From: Opitutia bacterium Tous-C4FEB
GTDB taxonomy: Bacteria; Verrucomicrobiota; Verrucomicrobiia; Opitutales; Opitutaceae
Assembly: GCA_002304445.1 (NCBI GenBank)
Contig: NEVA01000029.1
Location: forward strand, 1-34,223
Direction: 5' to 3'
DNA length: 34,223 nucleotides
Shown one piece after another: positions 12,715-27,495 of the stretch. Each line of letters opens with the position of its first letter. Position 1 is the first letter of the stretch. A model generated the notes under the pieces. That model worked only from the letters and a program-made list of their open reading frames with translations. It ran no database searches and had not been told where the DNA came from. Made by a program: the position numbers and the translations under genes.

Positions 12715-13737
12715 TCACTGCCCGAACAGCAGTTGTAGCACCGTTTCCAAGTCTTTGCCGACCGCCCAGCCCCCGCCTTTGGCCACTGCCAGCGATTTGC
12801 TGCGCTGGCGCTTTTCCACTTCCGCGTTGACCGAAATGATCCGGGGTAAATCCCTCGCCAGGCCCAGTGTCTCCAGCGAGGTCAGCGGCGTCCACGCCAC
12901 CGGCAATCCCGTCCACGCGAACTTTATTTCCCAACCCGCCACCGGTCCCAGCGGCAGTTCCTTGGTCAGGAGTGCCGGATAGCGAGTCACAAAATCAGGC
13001 GTGCGCATCGTCGCGATGCGCAGCGTCACCACCGGCTCGATTTGCGCAAAGTAGTCGCGGAACGTATTGACCCGTTTGGCCCGCCAGTCACCGAGGAAAT
13101 CAAGCACGTCGATGCCCATCAAATTCATCCCGTTCCAAGGCCCTTGCTCGTTCGGGCTGCCAAATTTCCGCCGGCTATACCAAGACTGAAAATCCCGCGT
13201 CAGCATCAACCCGATCTCAAAGTGCAGGTGAGCCCGTTCCTTGGGGATCGCGTAGCCGCCCGCGCTGCGCCCCATCGTGGCGATCACCCGACCCCGCTGC
13301 ACCCGCTCGCCCACTCGCAGGCCCGGCGCGATCTTCGCCAGATGCGCGTAAAGGGTGTAAACGCCCGGAGTCTCCTCCGGGTGCTCGAGCACGACGTAAC
13401 GCCCGTAGCCACTATCGCCCGCCGAAGCGTTGATGTGCCGCACGACCCCCGCCATCGCGGCGAAAATATCGTCCGTCGCCTCACCCCGGCGGTCACGGGC
13501 AACCGGCGGGATATCGATGCCCTCGTGAAACTTCGTGCCGCCACTGCGCACGCCGCCAAATCCCCCCGAGGCCGGATCACCCGAGCCCGCGTGTTGCAGA
13601 AAACTCGCCGCCGGACGGCCTTCGTTCCACGCCGGATGCGGCGTCGGCCAAGTGAATTCCACCCGCGGCGATTGGGCGCACAGGGTCGAGACCGTCCAAC
13701 CCAACACCGCGGCAAACTTGGCGAGTCGCGGGATCAT
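12715..13737 (-). CDS. Exported M23 (LytM-type) metallopeptidase
   Basis: The 340-residue protein has an N-terminal signal sequence (cleavage near residue 21) and an M23 peptidase domain with zinc ligands in place: H71 and D75 in HEGIDIP, H132 in the YAHL motif, and H170/H172 in HLHFE. Such enzymes cut peptide cross-links of peptidoglycan or act on other peptides; intact ligands suggest an active enzyme in the periplasm. The C-terminal 140 residues, after WNGMNLMGIDVLDFL, match no domain I recognise. It is the last gene of a four-gene chain and its start overlaps the stop of the preceding lipoprotein gene (ATGA at 13734-13737), implying coupled translation. Confidence 0.9.
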   Translation of the reverse strand: MIPRLAKFAAVLGWTVSTLCAQSPRVEFTWPTPHPAWNEGRPAASFLQHAGSGDPASGGFGGVRSGGTKFHEGIDIPPVARDRRGEATDDIFAAMAGVVRHINASAGDSGYGRYVVLEHPEETPGVYTLYAHLAKIAPGLRVGERVQRGRVIATMGRSAGGYAIPKERAHLHFEIGLMLTRDFQSWYSRRKFGSPNEQGPWNGMNLMGIDVLDFLGDWRAKRVNTFRDYFAQIEPVVTLRIATMRTPDFVTRYPALLTKELPLGPVAGWEIKFAWTGLPVAWTPLTSLETLGLARDLPRIISVNAEVEKRQRSKSLAVAKGGGWAVGKDLETVLQLLFGQ

Positions 13738-14234
13738 CCGTTGCGCTTCATCGCTTTTTGCAGGTCCGCCGACGTGCGTTTCAGGTCGGTCACCAACGTG
13801 GTCAGTTCACCGTCGCTCAGCTCCACGAAAATCATGACCGCACCGTCTTCAAAGGGCCGGTCAATCTGCCGCGCGCCCAGCGCCACATCGTTGAGCGTGA
13901 GCACCAAGCGGCGCCCTTGGTTGGAGCCCGTCAGCCGGTAGAGGTCACGCGCCGCCGACGGCGTGACTTGCAAGAGCAAGCAACGCCCCAGTTCCACCTG
14001 GACCACTTCCGCGTTGAGGATGTCGCCTTCGGCGATGACCGCCTTTGAGTTCACGGAGATCACGGCCCCGCTGCGCGGCAACGTTACGGTGGGCGACGAA
14101 GCGTCACCCGACTCCAAAAACAACCGCGCCTGCGTCGGCGTGTAGTCGACTGGTTTAGTCGTGGCGCACCCGCTCCAGCCGGCGACGGCGAGGAGCAACC
14201 CGGCGATCACAAAGCTGCCGACGCCCCCCTTCAT
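13734..14234 (-). CDS. Small putative lipoprotein of unknown function
   Basis: The 166-residue protein begins with a short charged N-terminus, a hydrophobic segment and the sequence GWSGCATTK, a lipobox-like site with Cys23 as the likely lipidated residue, although the -3 Trp is atypical. The mature part is beta-rich: VTLPRSGAVISVNSKAVIAEG, then VELGRCLLLQVTPSAARDLYRLTG, and a region LVLTLNDVALGARQIDRPF. The last segments loosely recall the P1 head region of SecD (a strand, a GARQI-like turn, then a helix ending LKRTSADLQKAMK), but this is only a suggestion. Both ends overlap neighbours by ATGA, linking it to the DUF62 protein upstream and the M23 peptidase downstream. Function is unknown. 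Confidence 0.75.
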   Translation of the reverse strand: MKGGVGSFVIAGLLLAVAGWSGCATTKPVDYTPTQARLFLESGDASSPTVTLPRSGAVISVNSKAVIAEGDILNAEVVQVELGRCLLLQVTPSAARDLYRLTGSNQGRRLVLTLNDVALGARQIDRPFEDGAVMIFVELSDGELTTLVTDLKRTSADLQKAMKRNG

Positions 14235-15148
14235 TTGGCCACGGCCGGCGCACCGGAGTTTATTTTTTTAACCCGCACGCCCCACTCCGCACCGCGACCC
14301 ACCTTATTCGTCTGGGCGAAGTCCCCGCGGTTCAGCGCAAAGCTGACATTCACGAGGCTGTTCAAATACAGCAGCGGCGTGCCGAGCGCGACCTCACCAA
14401 ACGACGCCACGTAAGGCAGCTCGCCGGTGTAGATCACTTCGCCCGCGCGTGAAATGCTGACCTGAAACCGGTCACCGAACTTCGGCGCGAGTTTCGCGAA
14501 CAGCGCTTCGTCGAGGTTCGTCCAGACGTTGCCGTATTGGGCGTCGAGCGCCGGAATCGTGCCCACGAGCATTTCGCTCTCGAGGCGCGCACGCTCGTAA
14601 GCCAGCGCCACGACGCGCGTCGGCAACTCGGGCCCGACCTCGACGAACGGCACCGCATCGGCCGCCAGTCGCGCCCCGACAAACGCGAATACATCGCGGC
14701 CATGAAACGTGTAGGATTTATCCGACCCCGCCAGCCGGTGCTTCGCCGGATCAATCTCGCGCACGGCCGCGACTCCGAGGTCCTCGGCGATCAACGTGAA
14801 AGTCCCATTATCCGGACCGACAAAAAAATGCCCGCTCTTTGTCTGCACAACGACCGACTTCCGGTTCTTACCCACTCCGGGATCAACGACGGAGACAAAA
14901 ACCGTTCCCTTCGGCCAATAACCGGCGGTCTGTTTCAGACGGTAGGCCGCCTCCCAGACGTCAAAGGGCGTGTTCTCATGGCTCAGATCAAAGATCACCA
15001 ACCGCGGGCTCACCCCGAAGGCCACTCCGTGCATCGCGGAAACCGCGCCGTCCTTGCGCCCAAAATCCGACTGAAACACCAGCGCGCGTTGCGCGTGGGC
15101 GACCGCCGTCAAACCGAGCAGGACTGCGAGGATCTTGGGCGGATTCAT
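14231..15148 (-). CDS. Exported SAM hydroxide adenosyltransferase-like (DUF62) protein
   Basis: The 305-residue protein belongs to the DUF62 family, whose members hydrolyse S-adenosylmethionine to adenosine and methionine and are related to fluorinases and chlorinases. The triad described for DUF62 hydrolases appears intact: D89 in VSVVDPGVG, R96 in GKNRKSV and H149 in YTFHGRDVFA, with FVGPDNGTF between. The unusual point is the N-terminus: PPKILAVLLGLTAVAHAQ is a clear signal peptide with cleavage after A19, followed immediately by the family's first strand (ALVFQSDFG). Most characterised relatives are cytoplasmic. The gene overlaps the HemW-like gene upstream and the lipoprotein gene downstream by ATGA. 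Whether it acts on SAM or another nucleoside outside the cytoplasm is unknown. Confidence 0.87.
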   Translation of the reverse strand: MNPPKILAVLLGLTAVAHAQRALVFQSDFGRKDGAVSAMHGVAFGVSPRLVIFDLSHENTPFDVWEAAYRLKQTAGYWPKGTVFVSVVDPGVGKNRKSVVVQTKSGHFFVGPDNGTFTLIAEDLGVAAVREIDPAKHRLAGSDKSYTFHGRDVFAFVGARLAADAVPFVEVGPELPTRVVALAYERARLESEMLVGTIPALDAQYGNVWTNLDEALFAKLAPKFGDRFQVSISRAGEVIYTGELPYVASFGEVALGTPLLYLNSLVNVSFALNRGDFAQTNKVGRGAEWGVRVKKINSGAPAVAK

Positions 15149-16332
15149 CGCGCCACGCCCTCGGATTCAAACGCGCCCATGAGCTCCGCTCCGATGGTGT
15201 CCGCCAGCAGCCGCCCGCGATTCAGCAGGCGTAATTGTGAACCGCTGCGTTCCGCGAAACCTTCCGCCACGAGCCGATCCGCCAGCGCTTCGACGGCGCC
15301 CCACGGCGCTTCGGGACAACGCACCTGCCACGCCGCGAGATCTACCCCGGCGTTCATGCGCAGGCCAAAGACCAAGGCATCCTCGGCCAACAACGCGGGC
15401 GTGACCGCCACGCGGTCCTCCGTGAGCCGCTCCCCGCGGGCAACCTGCTCCCGCCACTTCGCCAAATCCGAAACATTGGCCCCGCGCCATCCCGCGTGTT
15501 GCGACGCCGCCGAGGGGCCGAGGCCGATCCACTCCTGCATGTGCCAGGTGTTGAGATTGTGGCGACAGACGTGACCCGGTTTGGAAAAATTGGAGACTTC
15601 GTATTGCGCAAAACCCAGCGCAGCCAACCGCGCCCACGTTTCCTCGTAGAGCCGGGCTTCGCGTTCGACATCGAGCTTCACCTTGCCCTGCGAGAGTTTT
15701 ACCCAGAGCGCAGTGTCTTCTTCGAAGGTGAGGCAATAGGTGGACAAGTGGTCCGGAGCCAACGCCACCGCCGCGTCGATGTCGGCCAACCAGCTGGCCT
15801 CATCCTGGCCCGGCAAGGCGAACATCAGGTCGAGATTCACGCTCCTGAACTCCGCCGCCCGCACCCGCTCGTGCGCCCGGTAAATCTGCTCGCGCGTATG
15901 TTGTCGACCCAGCCCATCGAGCAACTCGGGAGCAAAACTCTGCACGCCCAACGATACCCGCGTGACCCCGATCGCCTTGAATGCGGCCAACCGCTCGCTT
16001 GTTACCGAAGCCGGCGCGAGCTCGACGGTCCACTCCTGCGGTTCACGCCGGAAGCGCTTTCTCAAGCCGGCCCCCAACACCTCGATTTGACGCGGTGCGA
16101 GCAAGCCCGGCGTGCCACCGCCCCAAAACACTGTCGTCACCGGCCGCGGCCAATCCACCAACGCCGCCTCGGCTTCGACTCCATCAAGGAACCCCGACAC
16201 GGTCTCGGCGGTCGGCTGAGTCTGATAAAATGCGCAAAAATCACAGGTGGACGCACAAAACGGCACGTGGACGTAAAGACCGAGGGGTTCGTCGCCCACA
16301 CCTTTGGCTTGCTCTGAGAGAGGCGGGCTCAT
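15145..16332 (-). CDS. hemW: Radical SAM protein, HemW-like (coproporphyrinogen III oxidase-related)
   Basis: The 395-residue protein has the radical SAM cluster motif CxxxCxxC at residues 26, 30 and 33 (PFCASTCDFC), preceded by the HemW-type GLYVHVPF. Further signatures are VFWGGGTPGLL, VELAPASVTSERLAAFKAIGVTRVSLGVQSF, RSVNLDLMFALPGQ and HNLNTW with GLGPSAASQ. HemW is a heme-binding chaperone related to, but distinct from, the oxygen-independent coproporphyrinogen oxidase HemN. The start at 16332 fits the family; the open frame extends 131 codons upstream but that part overlaps the divergent lipoprotein gene and is not HemW-like. It heads a four-gene chain joined by ATGA overlaps. HemW is the best guess; a different substrate cannot be excluded. 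Confidence 0.87.
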   Translation of the reverse strand: MSPPLSEQAKGVGDEPLGLYVHVPFCASTCDFCAFYQTQPTAETVSGFLDGVEAEAALVDWPRPVTTVFWGGGTPGLLAPRQIEVLGAGLRKRFRREPQEWTVELAPASVTSERLAAFKAIGVTRVSLGVQSFAPELLDGLGRQHTREQIYRAHERVRAAEFRSVNLDLMFALPGQDEASWLADIDAAVALAPDHLSTYCLTFEEDTALWVKLSQGKVKLDVEREARLYEETWARLAALGFAQYEVSNFSKPGHVCRHNLNTWHMQEWIGLGPSAASQHAGWRGANVSDLAKWREQVARGERLTEDRVAVTPALLAEDALVFGLRMNAGVDLAAWQVRCPEAPWGAVEALADRLVAEGFAERSGSQLRLLNRGRLLADTIGAELMGAFESEGVAR

Positions 16333-17357: not shown

Positions 17358-17388
17358 AGGGCGGAAGACTACTCCGCCCTATTTTTTT
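17358..17388 (+). terminator. Rho-independent terminator after the IPT/TIG lipoprotein
   Basis: The 8-bp arms AGGGCGGA (17358-17365) and TCCGCCCT (17373-17380) surround a 7-nt loop and are followed by A and seven T residues. The right arm and T-run also form the last codons and TAG stop of the converging EEP-family gene, so the structure overlaps coding sequence on the other strand. Confidence 0.88.
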
Positions 17389-18278
17389 GGCCCAAAGTCG
17401 AGCACTACGCTGACGGGGCGGTGATCGCTCGCCTCGCGCCAACTCGGGCCGTCGTAAATGCAGGCCTCGCCGCCGCGCACCGCCGGGAGCACCGCCGCCG
17501 AGACCAAGACATGATCAACCCGCGTGTAGGTGTCGTTTTTCCTGAAAGCATGGGTCCAAGCCTCGCCCCGGCTGTCGACCGCCGGCAGCAGATCGGCAAT
17601 CTTCGTCTTGCCCCGCTGCTGCAGAAACCCGAGCGCCTTGCTGTTTTTGTCATCGTTAAAATCACCCAGCACGATGAACGCGGTCGTCGACGGATCGGCA
17701 CAGCGGAGCAGGATGCGGTCGCGAAGCGCCGTCGCTTCCGCCGCACGCCGGATGGCAGATAAAGGGTCGTCCGGCCGATCAGTGTAACGGCTCTTTAAGT
17801 GCAGTCCAAATACCGTCAGCTCACGCCCCGCGACGGCAACGCGCACCTCCAACAATCCGCGCCGCACGCGTTCTTTTTGCCCGAAATAACGAAACTCAAA
17901 ATCGGTGTGCGGCGTGACGGAAACCAGCGCCCGCTTTGACAACAACGCCACATGGCGGTCCGCATCGTCTCCGGCCAGCAGGACCGCGTGCGGATAAACC
18001 AATCCTTCCGCGCCCAGATCGCGGCGCAACTCATCGAGATAGAGTTGGCCACCCATCTCTTGCAGCACGAGCACGTCCGCGTTGAGCGTTCGGAGCACTG
18101 TGCGCAAGGCCAGCTTCTCCGCCTCGGGCTTTGGGTAATCTTTGCGGTAACCCACTTCCGTCATCCGGTTCGCCGGCCCATAGTTCTCGATATTGTAAGT
18201 CGCGAGGGTCAGCGACTCGCCTCGCACCGCCGTCCACCCGGTGACCACCAGCCAGAGGATAATTCGCCAGGTGATCAT
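17379..18278 (-). CDS. Exported endonuclease/exonuclease/phosphatase (EEP) family protein
   Basis: The 299-residue protein has a signal peptide (residues 1-20) followed by an EEP fold. The catalytic landmarks are all present: TYNIEN (N29), VLQE (E74), GLHLKSR, GDFND, TRVDHVLVS and SDHRPV. EEP enzymes are metal-dependent hydrolases that cut phosphodiester or phosphomonoester bonds in nucleic acids, phospholipids or inositol phosphates; the signal peptide places this one in the periplasm or outside, so scavenging of phosphate or extracellular DNA is plausible. The exact substrate cannot be told. It lies 14 bp after the M48 protease gene and is probably cotranscribed. Confidence 0.88.
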   Translation of the reverse strand: MITWRIILWLVVTGWTAVRGESLTLATYNIENYGPANRMTEVGYRKDYPKPEAEKLALRTVLRTLNADVLVLQEMGGQLYLDELRRDLGAEGLVYPHAVLLAGDDADRHVALLSKRALVSVTPHTDFEFRYFGQKERVRRGLLEVRVAVAGRELTVFGLHLKSRYTDRPDDPLSAIRRAAEATALRDRILLRCADPSTTAFIVLGDFNDDKNSKALGFLQQRGKTKIADLLPAVDSRGEAWTHAFRKNDTYTRVDHVLVSAAVLPAVRGGEACIYDGPSWREASDHRPVSVVLDFGPKK

Positions 18279-20115: not shown

Positions 20116-21105
20116 TTAACGCCGCGTTGCCGGCAGAAATTCCTTCGTCGCCACCGCCTCGGCCGTCAACGGACGGTCGAGGATCTTGAGCTCGCGCAAT
20201 ATCTCGATTTGCCGCGCGATGCGATGCAGCTCGATCTGCCCGATCACCTCGCCGCGCGCCGCGTCACCGTGCACCAAGTTGCGCGAAATCAGTTCGCCCC
20301 GCGAGAATTCCAACAAGCCGCCTGTCATCTGTGTATTGGCCTGCAATATGAGCGCGTGGGCGGGCTCCGGATCGCCTTCAAGATAGTCCCGCCAACCCTG
20401 CACCGAGGCCCCGACAAACGCCCGCACCACATCGGGCTCGGCCCGCGCGAGTTCCCGCCGGCAAAAAATCGCGTGATACGCGTCGAAGCCCGAGGCCCCG
20501 ATCATGAGCGAGCGCACCGCGATCCCTTTTTGCCGGGCGACATATGGCTCGTTCGTGACGAGGCCCTGCTGGATCGCATCCGGGTCGGCCATAAAACCCG
20601 CCAGGCCGTAAGTCTGGGGCCGGAGCGCAAAGTCGATGCCACGGCTCTGCTTCAACCACGGAATCCACGCCATTCCGACCGAGGCCGTCACCGTTCGGCC
20701 CGCGAGATCATCCAAGCTCTTCACCGGACTCGCGTCGTGCACGAGCAGCACTTGCGAATCATGCTGGAGCACCGCCGCGACCACGAGCAGCGGCAGCCCT
20801 TGGCTAGCCGCCAAGATCAGATCATCGCTGCGGTTCATGCCAAAATCGGCGTCGCCTTTTGCGACCTTCAAATTGATTCCCGCGCCCGGACCGCCCGGCA
20901 ACAACGTCACGTCCAGCCCGGCTTCGCGATAGAATCCCTTGGCCAGCGCCTGATAAAAACCCCCGTGCTCAGCCTGCGGAAACCAATCCGTTTGCAGCGC
21001 AATTTTGCGCAGCCCGACCTTGGCCGGCGCCGGCTCTTTCCGCGCGCAACCCGGCCCAATTAGAGCCGCCACCACTAGACAGAATAAGATCGCGCAAAAA
21101 CGCAT
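20116..21105 (-). CDS. THI5/NMT1-like substrate-binding lipoprotein (ABC-type), orphan
   Basis: The 329-residue protein begins with a signal sequence ending GPGC (Cys20), so it is probably lipid-anchored. The mature part has the NMT1/THI5-like signature at its start (ALQTDWFPQAEHGGFYQALAKGFYREAGL), then DVTLLPGGPGAGINLKVAKGDADFGM and VKSLDDLAGRTVTASVG, features of periplasmic proteins that bind thiamine pyrimidine precursors such as formylaminopyrimidine, or other small organics. No permease or ATPase gene is next to it, so the partner transporter must lie elsewhere or the protein has another job. The ATG at 21105 is preferred over one at 21147, which would add 14 residues ahead of the signal peptide. 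The next upstream gene is an amidohydrolase, 57 bp away. Confidence 0.87.
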   Translation of the reverse strand: MRFCAILFCLVVAALIGPGCARKEPAPAKVGLRKIALQTDWFPQAEHGGFYQALAKGFYREAGLDVTLLPGGPGAGINLKVAKGDADFGMNRSDDLILAASQGLPLLVVAAVLQHDSQVLLVHDASPVKSLDDLAGRTVTASVGMAWIPWLKQSRGIDFALRPQTYGLAGFMADPDAIQQGLVTNEPYVARQKGIAVRSLMIGASGFDAYHAIFCRRELARAEPDVVRAFVGASVQGWRDYLEGDPEPAHALILQANTQMTGGLLEFSRGELISRNLVHGDAARGEVIGQIELHRIARQIEILRELKILDRPLTAEAVATKEFLPATRR

Positions 21106-21162
21106 TCCGTTAACGTGTCGCGCCACCTGCCTCCACGGCGAGCACAACTCCGCGGGCCCCTG

Positions 21163-22074
21163 TCATATCTCGCAACCGATGAGACGTCGCCCGTTTTCCC
21201 AAAACAGGGCGGCGCGTTCTTCGTCGCTCAGCCCGGCGCGTCGCACTTCATCCAGCAACCGGCACATTTCCGCGTCCGGTCCGGCCTGCGGGTAATTGTT
21301 CAACGGATAATCCGACCCAAAAAGCACCTTCTCCACCCCGGTCTCCGCCATGAAGCGCGGCCAAATTCCTCCATCGTAGAGTAACGGGGACGCCGCCGTA
21401 TCGTAGCTCACGTTTTCAAAAACCTTCCCCGCTCCATCCCTTAGCGCGCGACCGCCGCCCCAATGCGCGAGTACAAACCGCACCGACGGCCAAGCCCGTG
21501 CGAGCCCACAGAAATCCTCCTGCGGCGTCTCAGTCCTGCCCGGATAAACCGGTCCGCGGGCGTCGGTCACGTGCAAGTTCACCGGCCACCGCCACCCCGC
21601 CGCCGCCGCCAACACCGCCGCGAACTCCGCTCCGTCCGCCGCGTAGCCTTGAGCATGCGGCGACAACTCGCCCAGTCCGACCAATCCGTCCTCCCGCGCC
21701 CGTCGCATCTCCGCCACCGCGGCCGCGCCGCCCGCCACCGGTTGCACCGTCGCAAACGCGCTCAACCGGTCCCCATGAGCCCGCACGCACTCCGCAAAAA
21801 ATCTATTTTGGCGCGAGCAGTTCGCCGCCTGCTCCCAATACCAACCCAGCAACACCGCGCGTTCCACGCCCGCCCGATCCATTTCCGCCAACAACTCGTC
21901 CACACTCGGAAAACCCTGCACCAGGGCACCGTTCTTTCGACGCCGCGTGCAGAGCGTCGCCCAATGCGGCTCGCCCTGCGCCGCCCCCCAGCCAACCGGA
22001 TCGAGATTTACCTCGGGCGGGTAGAGATGAACGTGGCTGTCGATCACGCGCGGCACGGCACGAAACTCGCTCAT
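21163..22074 (-). CDS. Amidohydrolase-2 family metal-dependent hydrolase
   Basis: The 303-residue protein is a TIM-barrel amidohydrolase of the amidohydrolase-2 (decarboxylase/lactonase-like) group. The metal-site HxH is at H14/H16 (VIDSHVHLYPP); later motifs are WPVNLHVTDARG, FVLAHWGGGR and VLFGSDYPLNN, in which the Asp is the conserved catalytic residue. Members hydrolyse or decarboxylate a wide range of ring compounds; the substrate here cannot be assigned. It is the first gene of a minus-strand run and is divergent from the purine permease gene across 56 bp, which includes an AT-rich tract that could hold both promoters. Confidence 0.85.
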   Translation of the reverse strand: MSEFRAVPRVIDSHVHLYPPEVNLDPVGWGAAQGEPHWATLCTRRRKNGALVQGFPSVDELLAEMDRAGVERAVLLGWYWEQAANCSRQNRFFAECVRAHGDRLSAFATVQPVAGGAAAVAEMRRAREDGLVGLGELSPHAQGYAADGAEFAAVLAAAAGWRWPVNLHVTDARGPVYPGRTETPQEDFCGLARAWPSVRFVLAHWGGGRALRDGAGKVFENVSYDTAASPLLYDGGIWPRFMAETGVEKVLFGSDYPLNNYPQAGPDAEMCRLLDEVRRAGLSDEERAALFWENGRRLIGCEI

Positions 22075-22130: not shown

Positions 22131-23468
22131 ATGCTGCAACGTTTCTTCCAACTCGATCGCCATAAAACCACCGTCGGCCGCGAATTCCAGGCCGGCCTAA
22201 CGACCTTCGCCGCGATGGCCTACATTCTGGTCGTCAACCCCGACATTCTGGCCAACACCGGCATGGACAAGGGCGCGCTCGTCACCGTAACCGCGCTCAC
22301 CGCCGCGCTCGCCACGGTGATCATGGCGTTTCTGACCAACTACCCGATCGCGCTCGCTCCCGGCATGGGCATCAACGCGTTCTTCACCTTCACAATCGTG
22401 CTCGGCAAGGGCATCCCTTGGTCCGAGGCCCTCGGCATGGTGTTCGTCAACGGCGTGATCTTCCTCGCGCTCTCCATCTCCGGCATCCGCGAAAAGATCA
22501 TGGCATCGATTCCCCATGCCCTAAAAATCGCCGTCACGTGTGGCATCGGGCTCTTCATTGCGTTCATCGGCCTGAAGAACGGCGGCGTCATCGTCGCCAA
22601 CCCCAACACCTTCGTCACCGCCGGCAACCTTGCCTCCGGTCCCGTCGCGCTCTGCCTCGGCGGCATTATTCTCACCATCATTCTCGTGGCCCGGAATGTG
22701 CCCGGCGGTATCGTCATCGGCATCGCGATCGTGACGATTGCCGGCCTGTTCGTCCCCGCGGGAGGCGGCGCGCAAGTTACCCGGCTCCCGTCCTCGATCA
22801 TCGCGCTGCCCCACTCGCCCGACCCGATCTTCCTCAAGCTCACGTTCAATTTCCTCACCAGTTGGAGCGCCTTCACCATCGCCCTGCCGCTCATCCTTAC
22901 ACTGCTGCTCGTCGATATGTTCGACAACATCGGTACACTCATCGGCGTCACAAAACGCGCCGGCCTCCTCTCCCCCGACGGCACGTTGCCCAAAGCCGGC
23001 CGCGCACTCCTCGCCGATTCCCTCGCGACCATCGCCAGCGCCATCTTCGGGACCTCCACCGTCGTGAGCTACATCGAGTCCGCTTCCGGCGTCGCCGCGG
23101 GCGGTCGCACCGGTCTTACCTCGCTCACCACCGCCGGCTTTTTCCTGCTCGCGCTCCTGTTCACGCCGCTGCTCCTCATCGTGCCGGCCGCCGCTACCGC
23201 TCCGGCCCTCGTGATCGTCGGCATCTTCATGATGCAGTCCGCCGTCGAGATCGACCTCAACGATTTCAAAATCGCCGCGCCCGCCGTGCTCACGATTTTC
23301 GCGATTCCGCTCACGTTCAGCATCGCGGAGGGCATCGGCCTCGGCCTCATCTCCGCCGCCCTGCTCGCCGTCGGTCTCGGCAAACCCAAGTCTTTCCCGA
23401 CCGTCGGCTACATCGTCGCCGGCATTTTCTTCCTGCAGTTTTTCAAGATTTTCCCGTTCGCCAGCTGA
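22131..23468 (+). CDS. NCS2 family purine permease, AzgA type
   Basis: The 445-residue membrane protein has the AzgA-subfamily pattern: GREFQAGLTTFAAMAYILVVNP near residue 17, PGMGINAFFTFTIV, TCGIGLFIAFIGLKN, VDMFDNIGTLIGVTKRAGLL near 262, and FGTSTVVSYIESASGVAAGGRTGL. About 12-14 hydrophobic segments are visible. AzgA permeases take up adenine, guanine and hypoxanthine by proton symport. The gene is followed immediately by the remains of an exported adenosine deaminase gene, which suggests the locus once handled adenosine-derived purines. The leader before the ATG is C-rich with no Shine-Dalgarno. Confidence 0.93.
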   Translation: MLQRFFQLDRHKTTVGREFQAGLTTFAAMAYILVVNPDILANTGMDKGALVTVTALTAALATVIMAFLTNYPIALAPGMGINAFFTFTIVLGKGIPWSEALGMVFVNGVIFLALSISGIREKIMASIPHALKIAVTCGIGLFIAFIGLKNGGVIVANPNTFVTAGNLASGPVALCLGGIILTIILVARNVPGGIVIGIAIVTIAGLFVPAGGGAQVTRLPSSIIALPHSPDPIFLKLTFNFLTSWSAFTIALPLILTLLLVDMFDNIGTLIGVTKRAGLLSPDGTLPKAGRALLADSLATIASAIFGTSTVVSYIESASGVAAGGRTGLTSLTTAGFFLLALLFTPLLLIVPAAATAPALVIVGIFMMQSAVEIDLNDFKIAAPAVLTIFAIPLTFSIAEGIGLGLISAALLAVGLGKPKSFPTVGYIVAGIFFLQFFKIFPFAS

Positions 23469-24235
23469 TAGATCGTTTCTTCTGCTCACGCTTCTATTGC
23501 CGCCATCACCCCGATCTTCGCCGGCGACTTCTCTGCGCGGTTCGAGATTCTAAGAACTCAAGCCACCCCGGCGCAGCTTTACACCCCGCCTTACTATTTG
23601 CCCAAGGGCGGCGATCTGCACAGGCACGCCGCCGGCGCCCACCTCGCCGAGCCTACCGCGCGCTCCGCGCCCGCACTCCCGGCATCGCTCTCTCCATTCG
23701 CGCCGGCGACATAAACGGCCCCGACCGCAACATCCGCGACACCCTCATCCTCGGCGCGACCCGGATCGGCCACGGCGTCAATCTCCTCACCCCCGGGACT
23801 TTGCTCCTCCATCAATAAAACTGGCGCGCGCTGATCGAGGTAAACCTGGTCTCAAACCGCCTGCTCGACTGAGTGCCCGACCTCGCGGCGCACGCGTTCC
23901 CCGAATTCCTCCGCACGGGCATTCCCGCCTGCCTCAACACCGACGATCGCGGCACGCGGGACACCAACCTCACCAACGAATACTAGGCCGCCGTCAAAGC
24001 CTTTAACCTCTCTTGGCCCGAGCTCGTGCTCCTGGGCCGCGCTTCACTCGAAAACGCCGTTGTCCCGCTTGAGGCAAAAACTGAACTTCTCGCCGCCTCT
24101 GCCGCACGCGTCGCCGCGTTTGCAGCCGCCTACGGTTCCGGTTCGCCCGAGACCGCTCTGGCTGCGCTCGCGACCATCAAGCCCGTCACCCACGGACACG
24201 CCAAGGGCACGTGGGGCCTGAGTCGCAGTCCGTAG
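23469..24235 (+). pseudogene. Decayed exported adenosine deaminase gene
   Basis: No single frame is open, but translated pieces match an adenosine deaminase in order. Right after the azgA stop comes IVSSAHAS (remnant of a signal peptide, without a start codon), then TPAQLYTPPYYLPKGGDLHRHAAGA, corresponding to the metal-binding PKGGDLHxH motif. Near 23650 the frame shifts by one and a large middle part is missing. The other frame then gives LSIRAGDINGPDRNIRDTL, GATRIGHGVNLL and CLNTDDRGTRDTNLTNEY (the RIGHG and TDD motifs), and AFNLSWPELVLLGRASLEN to the end. In-frame stops occur at 23816 (TAA), 23870 (TGA) and 23984 (TAG). The final open piece begins near 24026. Loss of start, internal deletion, frameshift and three stops make this a clear pseudogene. 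Confidence 0.9.
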
Positions 24236-24408
24236 CACGAGACTCCGGGGTCGCGGCCCGCGCCTTAGAGCGGTCGCCGTGGGCAAGATTTATTTTGGAG
24301 ATTTGGCTCGCACTGGAATTCCGGGTGATATTCTCCAAGAGTTTCAAGTGGCGCTGCAGTTGGATTCAGCTCCCGCAAGCAACTGTAGCGTTTCTAACCC
24401 CCGAACCC

Positions 24409-27400
24409 ATGCCAACCCTCGTCGAAACCCTTCGAAGCGTTCTCAAACCGCTGTTCCTCACTGTCATTTCTTTCCTTGCTTTGGTCCGTCCGGGACCAAT
24501 CGCCGGCGCTGAACCGGCCGCCAGCACCTCGACCGGGGTCGTGGTCGGTAACGTGACCAACAAAGCCACTGGCAACGGCCTCATCGGCGCCAAGGTGGAG
24601 GTCACCGCGCTCAACTTGAGCACCTTCGTCGACAACACGGGCCGCTACATCATGAACGTGCCCGCCGGCACCCACGACGTTACGGTCTCCTATATCGGTC
24701 TCGACTCCCAAACCGTCTCCGTCGTCGTTACCGCCGGCCAGCCGGCCGTCCGCGACTTCGTCCTGAGCAGCTCGGTGCTCATGCTCGACGCCTTCAAAGT
24801 CGCCAGTGTCAAAGAGGGCCTCTCGTCCGCACTGACCCAGCAACGCAACGCCGACAACCTCAAGAACGTCGCGTCGATGGATCAACTCGGCGACATGCCG
24901 AACATGAACGCCACCGAACTCGCGATCCGCCTGCCCGGCGTCGCTTTCGGCAACCCGGGTGACGAAGTCGTCGAAGTCATCAGCGTGCGCGGCATGGGCG
25001 CCGGCATGACCTCCATCACGATCGACGGTGGCGGCATGTCGTCCTTCAGCGCCCAGAATCGCAACACGCGCATGACCGCCTTTACCGGCAACATGTTCGA
25101 ATCGCTCGAGCTCACCAAGGGCCAGACTCCCGACCGCAGCGTTGATTCCTTGGGCGGCGGCGTGAATTTCAAGACCCGCTCCCCGCTCAATCAGAGCGAG
25201 CGCCGCCGCATCAGCTACAACTTCACCGCCCGTCAGGCCCCGTCGTTTAGCGAGCAAGTCCCGCTCCGCGAGGCCCGGCGCACCCACGCGTTGTTCAACG
25301 GCTCCTACATTGAGAAGTTCGCTATTTTCGGCAGCGAGGTCCCCAACCTCGCCGTCTCCGTCAACGCGTTCTACAGCGAAAATGCCTTCGGATTTTTCCG
25401 CACCAATCGCGATTACCAGCAGACCAACGCCCAACCCGCCTTCGTCTGGGATTACCGCACGCAGGACAATTACAACAACCGGATGCAGCGCAGCCTGAGC
25501 ACGAAGTGGGACTTCCGCCTCGACCGGAACAATCTGTTCAAGTTGAACCTGATTTATAACGACGCGCCCGAGCCGATGCGTCGTCAGTATCAGGTCCGGG
25601 CCTTCGCCGGCAGCCAGACCACCGTGCCCAACGCCACCACCACCGGCGTCGTCCCCGGTTGGACCGATCGCATCACCACGGTTCGCGCCGTTCCCACCGC
25701 CGCCAACGCGACGTCCGGCACCACCGCTGCCGCTCTCATCGACGTCACCGCCAACCTAATCAACCGCGACCAACGCCTGCGCCACATTGACCTCGGCGGC
25801 GAACATCGCTTCGGCCCCTTTGAAACCGATTGGGCCGCGGTGGTTAGCCGCACTCGCTACCGCTACCTCGGCTCCGAGGGTAACCTCATCAATCGCATCG
25901 GAAACGTCCCGTTCATCGGCCCCAACGGCGCCGCCGGTTCGGCCACCAACAACATCGTTGGTCCCAACGGTGAGACCGGCGTCGGCTGGGTCCTTGATCG
26001 CACCCAATCGAACCTCTACCCGCGCTTCATCCAAAACGGCGGGCTCGATTTCACCAACCCCAACAACTACCGCCCAGCCGTCAACGGCCTCAGCACTCAG
26101 TCCGGCAACTTGGACATCAATTTCATCCGAGAGGCCCGCGCCAACGCGAAATATCTTCTCCCCATCAACGCCTTCACTGCCTTCCTGAAGACCGGCGCCT
26201 CCGTCCGCGAGAATTCCGTCGAGACCGAGCGCCGCAACCGCCGGTGGAGCTACATCGGCACCACCGCCCTGCGCACCGATCCGTCTATTGTCTTGACCGA
26301 CGCGCTCAAAACCGGACGCAAAATCCCCCAGTGGGAAGGGGCCGAATACATCCAGAATGGTCAGCCGACTAATCCTGCGCTCTGGCAGGAAGACCGGTAT
26401 TTCTACGAGAACAACCGCCGTTTAAACACGAACAAGGTGAAGGAAGTCATCACCGGTTACTACATCATGTCTCAAGGCAAAATTGGCCGCAATGGCTTTC
26501 TCTTTGGCGTCCGACGCGAGATCACCGACACGACGGGCGAGGGCCGACGGCGCTCCCGTATTCTCTCCCCCGCCGCCCAACAGATCGCCGATCCCGTCAG
26601 CACCGCCGAAAGGGACAGTATCGCCTATAAAAACGAAGGCTCCTACGGTCAGAATTTTCCGAGCATTCACCTCTGGCGCGACCTCACCCCCAACCTGAAA
26701 GCCCGTGCTGCGTGGACGACCGGCTTCGGTCGACCCACCTTGGCCAACAATGTCGCCGCCCTGTCCTTCAGCGACACCAATCAAACTGTCACCTTCGGCA
26801 ATCCTGACTTAAAGCCCACGAAAGCCAAGAACTGGGACTTCTCGCTCGAGTACTACATGAATCCATCCGGTAGCCTCACGGTCGGCTGGTTCCACAAGCA
26901 ACTCGACGATCTCATCGTCTCCAACTTCGAAATCGGCTCGGTTGCTCCCGGCACGGACAACGGCTTTGAAGGCGAATTCGTCGGCTACTCCCTCCGCTCC
27001 AGCGCCAACGCGGGCACGGCTTACACCCAAGGCTGGGAGATCAGTTACCTCCAGCAATTCCGCTTCCTGCCCGGCCCGCTCAAAGGTCTTCGCCTCAACG
27101 CCAACCTGACCCAGATCACCGCCCACGGCGATTACGGCATCCCCGGCGCTTACCTCAAGGACCGCGACGTCAACGGCTTCATCCCGCGCACCGCCAACAT
27201 CTCCCTTGCGTGGGACTACAAGAAGCTCGGGGCCTCGGTCAGCTACAACTACACCTCGGAGAGCATTCGCAATGCCTTCAATCTCGCCCAACCTTCCCGT
27301 AATCAATACCTGCAGTCCCGCGAGATCGTGAACGCCAATATCCGTTACACGATTCGCCCCAGTATCACGCTCAACTTCGGCGTCCAGAATCTCTTCAACG

Positions 27401-27495
27401 AGCCGCAGATCTACTACCGTAGCATCCGCGACCAGCTTGAAACCTTCCTCGTCAACGGCACCACGATCACCGCCGGCGTCGAAGGTCGGTTCTGA
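24409..27495 (+). CDS. TonB-dependent receptor with carboxypeptidase-like regulatory domain
   Basis: The 1028-residue outer-membrane protein has a signal peptide (cleavage near residue 34), a CarboxypepD_reg-like domain (about 44-118: GVVVGNVTNKATGNGLIGAKVEV ... GTHDVTVSYIGL), a TonB-box-like segment (LDAFKVAS, about 126-133), a plug domain (about 145-260, with MDQLGDMPNMNATELAIRLPG and GAGMTSITIDGG), and a long beta barrel ending in VEGRF, the terminal aromatic expected for BAM insertion. Such receptors import substrates using energy from TonB-ExbB-ExbD. The substrate is unknown; the adjacent purine permease and dead adenosine deaminase hint at nucleosides, weakly. The ATG at 24409 begins the signal peptide; the frame stays open 66 codons further upstream into the pseudogene tail. 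Confidence 0.93.
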   Translation: MPTLVETLRSVLKPLFLTVISFLALVRPGPIAGAEPAASTSTGVVVGNVTNKATGNGLIGAKVEVTALNLSTFVDNTGRYIMNVPAGTHDVTVSYIGLDSQTVSVVVTAGQPAVRDFVLSSSVLMLDAFKVASVKEGLSSALTQQRNADNLKNVASMDQLGDMPNMNATELAIRLPGVAFGNPGDEVVEVISVRGMGAGMTSITIDGGGMSSFSAQNRNTRMTAFTGNMFESLELTKGQTPDRSVDSLGGGVNFKTRSPLNQSERRRISYNFTARQAPSFSEQVPLREARRTHALFNGSYIEKFAIFGSEVPNLAVSVNAFYSENAFGFFRTNRDYQQTNAQPAFVWDYRTQDNYNNRMQRSLSTKWDFRLDRNNLFKLNLIYNDAPEPMRRQYQVRAFAGSQTTVPNATTTGVVPGWTDRITTVRAVPTAANATSGTTAAALIDVTANLINRDQRLRHIDLGGEHRFGPFETDWAAVVSRTRYRYLGSEGNLINRIGNVPFIGPNGAAGSATNNIVGPNGETGVGWVLDRTQSNLYPRFIQNGGLDFTNPNNYRPAVNGLSTQSGNLDINFIREARANAKYLLPINAFTAFLKTGASVRENSVETERRNRRWSYIGTTALRTDPSIVLTDALKTGRKIPQWEGAEYIQNGQPTNPALWQEDRYFYENNRRLNTNKVKEVITGYYIMSQGKIGRNGFLFGVRREITDTTGEGRRRSRILSPAAQQIADPVSTAERDSIAYKNEGSYGQNFPSIHLWRDLTPNLKARAAWTTGFGRPTLANNVAALSFSDTNQTVTFGNPDLKPTKAKNWDFSLEYYMNPSGSLTVGWFHKQLDDLIVSNFEIGSVAPGTDNGFEGEFVGYSLRSSANAGTAYTQGWEISYLQQFRFLPGPLKGLRLNANLTQITAHGDYGIPGAYLKDRDVNGFIPRTANISLAWDYKKLGASVSYNYTSESIRNAFNLAQPSRNQYLQSREIVNANIRYTIRPSITLNFGVQNLFNEPQIYYRSIRDQLETFLVNGTTITAGVEGRF

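Follow-up and report, generated by a model that had tools for sequence, protein, structure and literature searches.

A gene of the DUF62 (SAM_HAT) family was examined in a 34,223-nucleotide stretch of DNA from Opitutia bacterium Tous-C4FEB (contig NEVA01000029.1; the whole stretch is called the window here). With a probability of about 0.5, we infer from its residues, its relatives and their neighbouring genes that the encoded protein is an extracytoplasmic SAM-type hydrolase freeing adenosine and methionine for uptake.

The DUF62 gene and its signal peptide

The gene, its domains and its neighbours in the operon were located as follows.

14231..15148, minus strand: predicted exported SAM_HAT (DUF62) gene, 305 aa, ATG start (open reading frame list and Pfam)
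15092..15148, minus strand: predicted Sec signal peptide, residues 1–19, cut between AHA and Q (hydropathy and motif; helix 3–18 in the model)
14645..15079, minus strand: SAM_HAT_N domain (PF01887), residues 24–168 (Pfam)
14282..14563, minus strand: SAM_HAT_C domain (PF20257), residues 196–289 (Pfam)
15145..16332, minus strand: hemW, upstream (TIGR00539, 217.2 bits, cut-off 205.4; start set by the 395-aa length of the L048 orthologue), with a 4-base stop/start overlap
13734..14234, minus strand: lipoprotein-like gene, downstream, 166 aa, overlapping the DUF62 stop by 4 bases (lipobox by eye)
12715..13737, minus strand: M23 peptidase gene, next downstream (PF01551; signal-like N-terminus by eye)

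Both domains scored above the Pfam cut-offs (SAM_HAT_N, 170 bits against 26.3; SAM_HAT_C, 61.7 bits against 25.5), placing the protein in the SAM_HAT/DUF62 family. The operon ran hemW, DUF62, lipoprotein-like gene and M23 peptidase gene with overlapping ends. The DUF62 ATG at 15148 shared four bases (ATGA) with the hemW stop, and the same −4 overlap was found in 17 of the 21 loci having hemW directly upstream, some of these being close relatives of one another. If translation began at either of the further in-frame codons downstream (TTG and GTG), only 12 residues or 1 would stand ahead of F25. The hydrophobic N-terminal core was kept in a relative (L048) 93% identical to the window protein. 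Because of the conserved overlap and this kept core, the annotated ATG start is regarded as firm on sequence grounds. A second exported-type DUF62 gene of the same genome (G000:C1:438160-439014; L002, L210), encoding a protein 44% identical to the window protein, adjoined a gene for an RDD-family membrane protein.

The N-terminus of the window protein, MNPPKILAVLLGLTAVAHA followed by Q, reached 2.64 in its top 10-residue hydropathy window, and its AlphaFold2 model placed a helix (3–18) ahead of the domain. A tblastn search of 236 loci with the window protein gave 240 proteins, or 200 after merging of identical mature parts. The exported group was defined as the 86 proteins scoring above 200 bits against the window protein, 84 of them complete. 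Signal peptides were called by one home-made hydropathy rule, not by a trained predictor, and this rule was passed by 78 of the 84 complete members but by only 8 of 114 remaining family members, indicating that the signal peptide of the window protein is not a chance feature. A small-x-small cleavage motif occurred in 79 of 80 signal-peptide rows, and most cytosolic-type members began about a dozen residues or fewer before the domain. Six members of the exported group failed the rule: L050 and L053 fell slightly under the cut (hydropathy 1.62 and 1.48), L137_a looks to have lost its N-terminus, and the other three came from Listeria (L129), Enterococcus (L130) and a Staphylococcus-labelled record (L133). 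The eight passing proteins outside the group comprised four lipoprotein-like proteins of a Verrucomicrobiota family (f11), Elusimicrobia L085, and L105, L156 and L161, which probably pass by chance. The lipobox flag of the rule was unreliable for E. coli and Oxalobacteraceae.

Predicted export of the window protein by Sec is thus strongly supported at the level of sequence. An earlier note on this DNA had read a signal peptide with an AHA-Q cut, had placed the protein outside the cytoplasm and had proposed a survey of DUF62 members with signal peptides; the hydropathy, the clade-wide counts and the cleavage motif bear out the signal peptide, and with the firm start they support the predicted placement. 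A true start downstream of the hydrophobic stretch, named there as one outcome that would overturn the reading, does not agree with the hemW overlap.

The exported clade and its distribution

A tree of 98 rows (95 proteins and three PDB sequences) was built with the quick method of IQ-TREE and no bootstrap; the tree and the residue counts leave out two truncated members of the clade and further proteins that were cut or of odd length. Tree labels were set by hand (L050 and L053 as signal peptide; L105, L156 and L161 as cytosolic, if present; lipoproteins from a list). The exported group formed a single clade of 48 rows (SH-aLRT 100), in which 44 rows bear the signal-peptide label and 4 do not. 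Three localisation states needed 5 changes on the tree, against an average of 35.4 for shuffled labels. The rows closest to the clade from outside were those of the chlorinase SalL, on a long branch, and of L085 (branch 95). The three Gram-positive-type proteins formed one subclade (98) nested inside the exported clade, which makes a loss of export in them probable, the root of the tree not being settled. The lipoprotein group stood apart from the exported clade (4 rows, SH-aLRT 100), which suggests a second, perhaps independent, route of export. The DUF62 lipoproteins listed in Verrucomicrobiota family f11 were L023, L027, L029, L031, L032 and L042 (L023 and L027 by eye only).

In an order-level sample, identities to the window protein were split into at least 44% and at most 39%; a few proteins outside this sample were intermediate (e.g. 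L085 at 42%). The clade was present in Opitutales, Bacteroidota, Oxalobacteraceae, Aeromonas and E. coli. PF01887 matches were found in 51 of 387 genomes of a Verrucomicrobiota sample and in 18 of 61 Opitutaceae genomes, 17 of the latter being of the exported kind; the remaining one (G019) had a cytosolic-type protein 32% identical to the window protein. In a sample of the Chitinophaga phylum (Bacteroidota; G428), 214 of 296 genomes matched the window protein; E was <1e-90 in 10 of these, and the next best value was 1e-38. Eight of the 10 Bacteroidota genomes having a clade member also gave a weaker second match (its kind was determined for G428 only), so the two kinds of DUF62 may differ in their job. 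In a sample of the Legionella class (G427), 111 of 274 genomes matched, two of them at E <1e-80, and one of these two (G596) had two clade genes.

The gene was found by megablast in 2374 of 5426 complete E. coli genomes, a count that more diverged copies would escape. In the records examined it sat between yigE and uvrD; BL21(DE3) carries a natural exported-type copy, and in MG1655 uvrD adjoined yigE with no gene in between. As the exported branch is widespread, the window protein is not exceptional. The premise behind the earlier note, that DUF62 enzymes work in the cytoplasm, thus fits most of the family members examined but not this branch.

Two exported DUF62 genes stood in tandem, 7 bp apart, at one locus (L218, G1029:C54). 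At another (L223, G596:C35), two clade genes were adjacent and pointed in opposite directions; one of them has apparently lost its signal peptide and overlaps a TonB receptor gene.

Active-site residues, fold and likely substrate

The residues of the triad were as follows.

14882..14884, minus strand: triad Asp89, kept in 84/84 exported-clade proteins
14861..14863, minus strand: triad Arg96, kept in 83/84 exported-clade proteins
14702..14704, minus strand: triad His149, kept in 82/84 exported-clade proteins

D89, R96 and H149, already pointed out as a kept Asp/Arg/His triad, were confirmed in the window protein and aligned with the matching residues of PH0463, given as D68-R75-H127 in passages of PMC4859513. 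Of the exported-clade proteins, 82 of 84 had the whole triad, as did 102 of 104 proteins of the cytosolic type and all 6 lipoproteins. The altered clade proteins were L216 (G1018; R96C and H149P) and L084 of Legionella feeleii (H149Y), in which the chemistry is perhaps changed or the activity lost.

SAM-binding positions were also conserved in the clade (D28, 84/84; N207, 82/84; D202, 77/84; S264, 84/84). D202 and S264 correspond to what we take to be the methionine-binding positions of the fluorinase. D28 and N207 were taken as counterparts of D16 and N215, which are named as conserved in the fluorinase in passages of PMC4859513. Three aromatic residues marked the clade: W289 (84/84 exported-clade against 0/104 cytosolic-type proteins), W209 (74/84 against 2/104) and F277 (72/84 against 2/104), the last two being present in SalL as well. 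With its signal peptide and W289, the window protein belongs to the exported SAM_HAT clade.

The AlphaFold2 model (pLDDT 93.7) had 40 structure matches at E ≤0.001, all of them chains of the same enzyme family, and VIA-align concurred. Z scores were 32.4 to 2zbu, 30.7 to SalL with SAM, 28.6 to the fluorinase FlA (1rqp), 28.0 to PH0463 with SAH (2wr8) and 26.1–26.4 to MJ1651. The window protein thus has both the Asp-Arg-His triad and the fold of the solved SAM hydroxide adenosyltransferases. It shares the two-domain fold, the triad and the SAM-binding residues with PH0463 and MJ1651, to which it is ~26–32% identical, but PH0463 begins at the domain, whereas the window protein has a signal peptide and carries W289, W209 and F277. 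The fold and some pocket residues are common to SalL and FlA, which both use halide according to passages of PMC4859513; unlike the window protein, SalL has Y, T and Y at the three triad sites. NCBIfam equivalog models for (R)-SAM hydrolase stayed below their cut-offs on the window protein (NF058624, 124.8 against 350 bits; NF053629, 102.5 against 470), as did the fluorinase model (91 against 400 bits). The halogenase reading was rejected on the intact triad. Since the triad and the compared SAM-binding positions are kept, a SAM-type adenosyl sulfonium compound would be the simplest substrate of the window enzyme.

Neighbouring genes and the proposed role

Receptor and permease genes near DUF62 were counted by profile searches in six frames (with profiles based on two genes of the window and on neighbours of clade genes), because a simple chain of open reading frames picks shadow frames in GC-rich DNA (e.g. 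U1 of L076, with no Pfam family). A TonB receptor gene lay within 400 bp of the gene in 18 of the 86 clade loci (Gram-positive loci included) and was absent near the other 68, and a Xan_ur_permease-family gene lay within 3 kb in 9 of 86, related strains being counted repeatedly and flank lengths differing. The control loci were taken from other members of the family (L085–L127 apart from L091, 42 of 43 in all) and showed neither gene at these distances; this set includes lineages without TonB receptors and the signal-peptide-like L085. Within the clade loci, receptors were concentrated at the positions closest to DUF62: they occupied U1 in 11/83 loci, U2 in 3/77, U3 in 1/72 and D1 in 1/85, and none of 419 positions at D2–D5, U4 and U5. 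In nine Oxalobacteraceae/Burkholderiaceae loci (L070–L074, L076–L079) the receptor was upstream on the same strand at less than 50 bp; L080 had no such close same-strand upstream receptor. In G596 the receptor was downstream and overlapped DUF62 by 4 bases, in L229 and L230 it was divergent, and in six Opitutaceae loci (L062, L063, L201, L213, L215 and L233) it was on the DUF62 strand. Receptors were confirmed by Pfam at L061, L062, L201, L070, L223 and L229, the scan of ten neighbour proteins giving three of them (L070, L223 and L229). Non-receptor neighbours were an M4 peptidase (L231), a helicase (L067), a PhoX phosphatase (L132), a nuclease (L066) and an alcohol dehydrogenase (L230), and the neighbour proteins of L131 and L076 matched no Pfam family. 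Further unrelated neighbours in relatives were RDD, LiaF-like, Kdo transferase, radical SAM and DUF305 proteins, and a phosphoribosyltransferase-type protein was encoded 13 bp upstream in Runella (L068).

In Opitutaceae, purine clusters were found at DUF62 loci without hemW. They included an NCS2-superfamily permease in L062 (above the superfamily cut-off) and L233, with homologues in L214 and L215; NUP proteins in L061, L062, L215 and L233, with homologues in L060, L063, L213 and L014; and phosphorylase-family (PNP_UDP_1) genes with signal-like N-termini in L062 and L233, the best model for the L062 protein being MTA/SAH nucleosidase at 59.1 bits against a cut-off of 169. L214 had an 8-oxoguanine deaminase (691 bits, cut-off 532). 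Adenosine deaminases (A_deaminase) with signal-like N-termini were found in L240 (contig of L061) and L241 (contig of L215), with a homologue in L063, and lay ~5 kb from DUF62 in L061 and L215; the family match needed whole genes, partial pieces giving none. Among 61 Opitutaceae genomes, NUP occurred in 11 of 17 with the exported gene against 13 of 44 without it (p 0.019, kinship ignored), and PF00860 in 15 of 17 against 25 of 44 (p 0.034, kinship ignored); the co-occurrence of NUP was modest. Since many clade neighbours are unrelated, the purine link belongs to some lineages and not to the whole clade.

The window itself contained the following genes related to these clusters.

20116..21147, minus strand: NMT1/THI5-like substrate-binding protein (PF09084), 43.6% over 328 aa to an L061 gene lying near an exported-type DUF62
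21163..22074, minus strand: Amidohydro_2 protein (PF04909), 52.4% over 292 aa to an L062 gene lying near an exported-type DUF62
22131..23468, plus strand: Xan_ur_permease-family purine permease (PF00860; AzgA-like by eye only)
23508..24220, plus strand: broken adenosine deaminase (two aligned pieces, middle missing, 3 in-frame stops)
24211..27495, plus strand: TonB-dependent receptor (PF00593, PF07715)

The permease was the sole PF00860 match of the genome and matched no NCBIfam model; intact relatives of the broken deaminase in other Opitutaceae were of PF00962. These purine-type genes were ~5–12 kb from DUF62. Thus, the window has several of the parts found in these clusters, but they are not adjacent, and its own operon gives no pointer to purines. 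The lipoprotein-like gene matched no Pfam family at E 0.001. The order of hemW, DUF62 and lipoprotein or M23 genes was repeated in Opitutaceae, with the M23-like cluster at 15 loci and a homologue of the lipoprotein-like gene directly downstream of DUF62 at 10. A gene at 17379–18278 (minus strand) encoded a protein of the endonuclease/exonuclease/phosphatase family; its N-terminus is signal-like, and it bears a weak resemblance to the extracellular nucleases ExeM/NucH.

Of the three Gram-positive-type clade members without a signal peptide, the Enterococcus gene (L130) was followed by genes for an ECF S component, an ATPase and a T component, and that of L133 by an S component of the same Pfam family and an ABC-ATPase-like cluster gene; the 'riboflavin' label of the S component is an annotation name. 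No ECF neighbour was found at the Listeria locus (L129). In a table of PMC13210130, neighbouring S. aureus locus numbers are given to a SAM hydroxide adenosyltransferase and an ECF S protein.

Nothing observed speaks for a defence against exported SAM-like molecules, one of the possibilities raised in the earlier note; the gene neighbourhood in several relatives suggests that purines are salvaged as nutrients. Sec would export the DUF62 enzyme to the periplasm, where the mature enzyme would bind an adenosyl sulfonium compound, most simply SAM. Water activated by D89/R96/H149 would attack C5′ and give adenosine and methionine, as family chemistry and the kept residues suggest, and these, unlike SAM, would enter the cell. 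Judging from the neighbours in relatives, nucleosidases or deaminases may in some species trim the products before uptake by a purine permease. The enzyme would thus act outside the inner membrane in Gram-negatives and inside the cell in the three Gram-positive-type members, two of which lie beside an ECF importer. A broader and more tentative proposal, held at somewhat under even odds, is that many Gram-negatives harvest external SAM or adenosyl sulfonium compounds with a TonB receptor or porin, exported DUF62, nucleosidases, deaminases and permeases, and that some Gram-positives import first (ECF) and split inside. The salvage model would account for export in one large clade and again in the lipoprotein clade, for genomes seeming to hold two kinds, and for the purine and receptor genes next to DUF62 in some lineages; the hemW/M23 operon and the yigE/uvrD site in E. 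coli fit it less well. Free extracellular SAM is short-lived and scarce, which also counts against salvage.

An exported enzyme of this fold might instead act on another adenosyl compound or nucleoside (SAH, methylthioadenosine, decarboxylated SAM or a natural product), SAM being incidental. W289, W209 and F277, unlike the residues of cytosolic-type members, speak for such a substrate, as do the phosphorylase-family genes of L062 and L233, the former resembling an MTA/SAH nucleosidase below the cut-off. But W209 and F277 also occur in SalL, a SAM binder, the protein retains D202, S264 and the triad that activates water, and attack on C5′ calls for a sulfonium leaving group, which makes this reading unlikely. 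We likewise think it improbable that the protein has an envelope or stress role, either as a partner of the lipoprotein and M23 peptidase encoded in its operon or by clearing SAM, or its R epimer, leaked to the periplasm. The recurrent operon order in Opitutaceae favours such a role, but partners differ outside these Opitutaceae, and leakage of SAM is not known to burden cells. Hydrolysis of the R epimer by StDUF62 is published (PMC10491745; PMC12120602), but passages of PMC12120602 doubt its clearance as the physiological role of that enzyme.

The protein could also be cytoplasmic, its hydrophobic N-terminus being a mis-called start or an uncleaved anchor. The two downstream non-ATG starts and the home-made rule behind the signal-peptide calls leave some room for this, yet the overlap with hemW at 17 of 21 loci, the cleavage motif and the short N-termini of most cytosolic-type members make it very improbable. 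Least probable of all is a secreted halogenase or SAM-consuming weapon: W209 and F277 are common to SalL, and SalL and L085 are the nearest group outside the clade, but the triad sites of SalL differ, and no natural-product gene was seen among 11 scanned proteins from part of the window.

If the salvage reading is true, the DUF62 family gains a physiological role, and if SAM is split outside the cytoplasm, a cofactor regarded as internal joins the nutrient exchange among cells. Given the exported branch, the uptake genes next to it in several relatives, and a natural copy in BL21(DE3) with none in MG1655, the question is testable in ordinary laboratory strains. The periplasmic 5′-nucleotidase UshA makes adenosine from an impermeable nucleotide-like compound before uptake; the proposed logic of DUF62 is like this, but the enzymes are unrelated and the likeness is an analogy only.

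Hydrolysis of SAM by DUF62 proteins, with adenosine and methionine as the products, is reported in passages of PMC10491745 and PMC12120602, as is a preference of StDUF62 for (R,S)-SAM. Titles and abstract starts in the open-access literature gave no description of an exported DUF62 enzyme, which does not prove that none is published. The E. coli protein at yigE/uvrD, annotated as 'SAM hydrolase/SAM-dependent halogenase family protein', was 56.8% identical over query 5–296, with a signal peptide and a place in the same clade but different neighbours; no functional study of it was found in the open-access literature searched. A 'Helicobacter phage' record (H1; L131, PQ159899.1) also carried an exported-type DUF62 gene. 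It was rejected as a phage gene, as it lay near bacterial-looking genes annotated MraW and ABC transporter. According to passages of PMC11321410, the bacterial gene adjoining a prophage in nine genomes is of this kind, and the DUF62 gene on PQ159899.1 is likely host flank.
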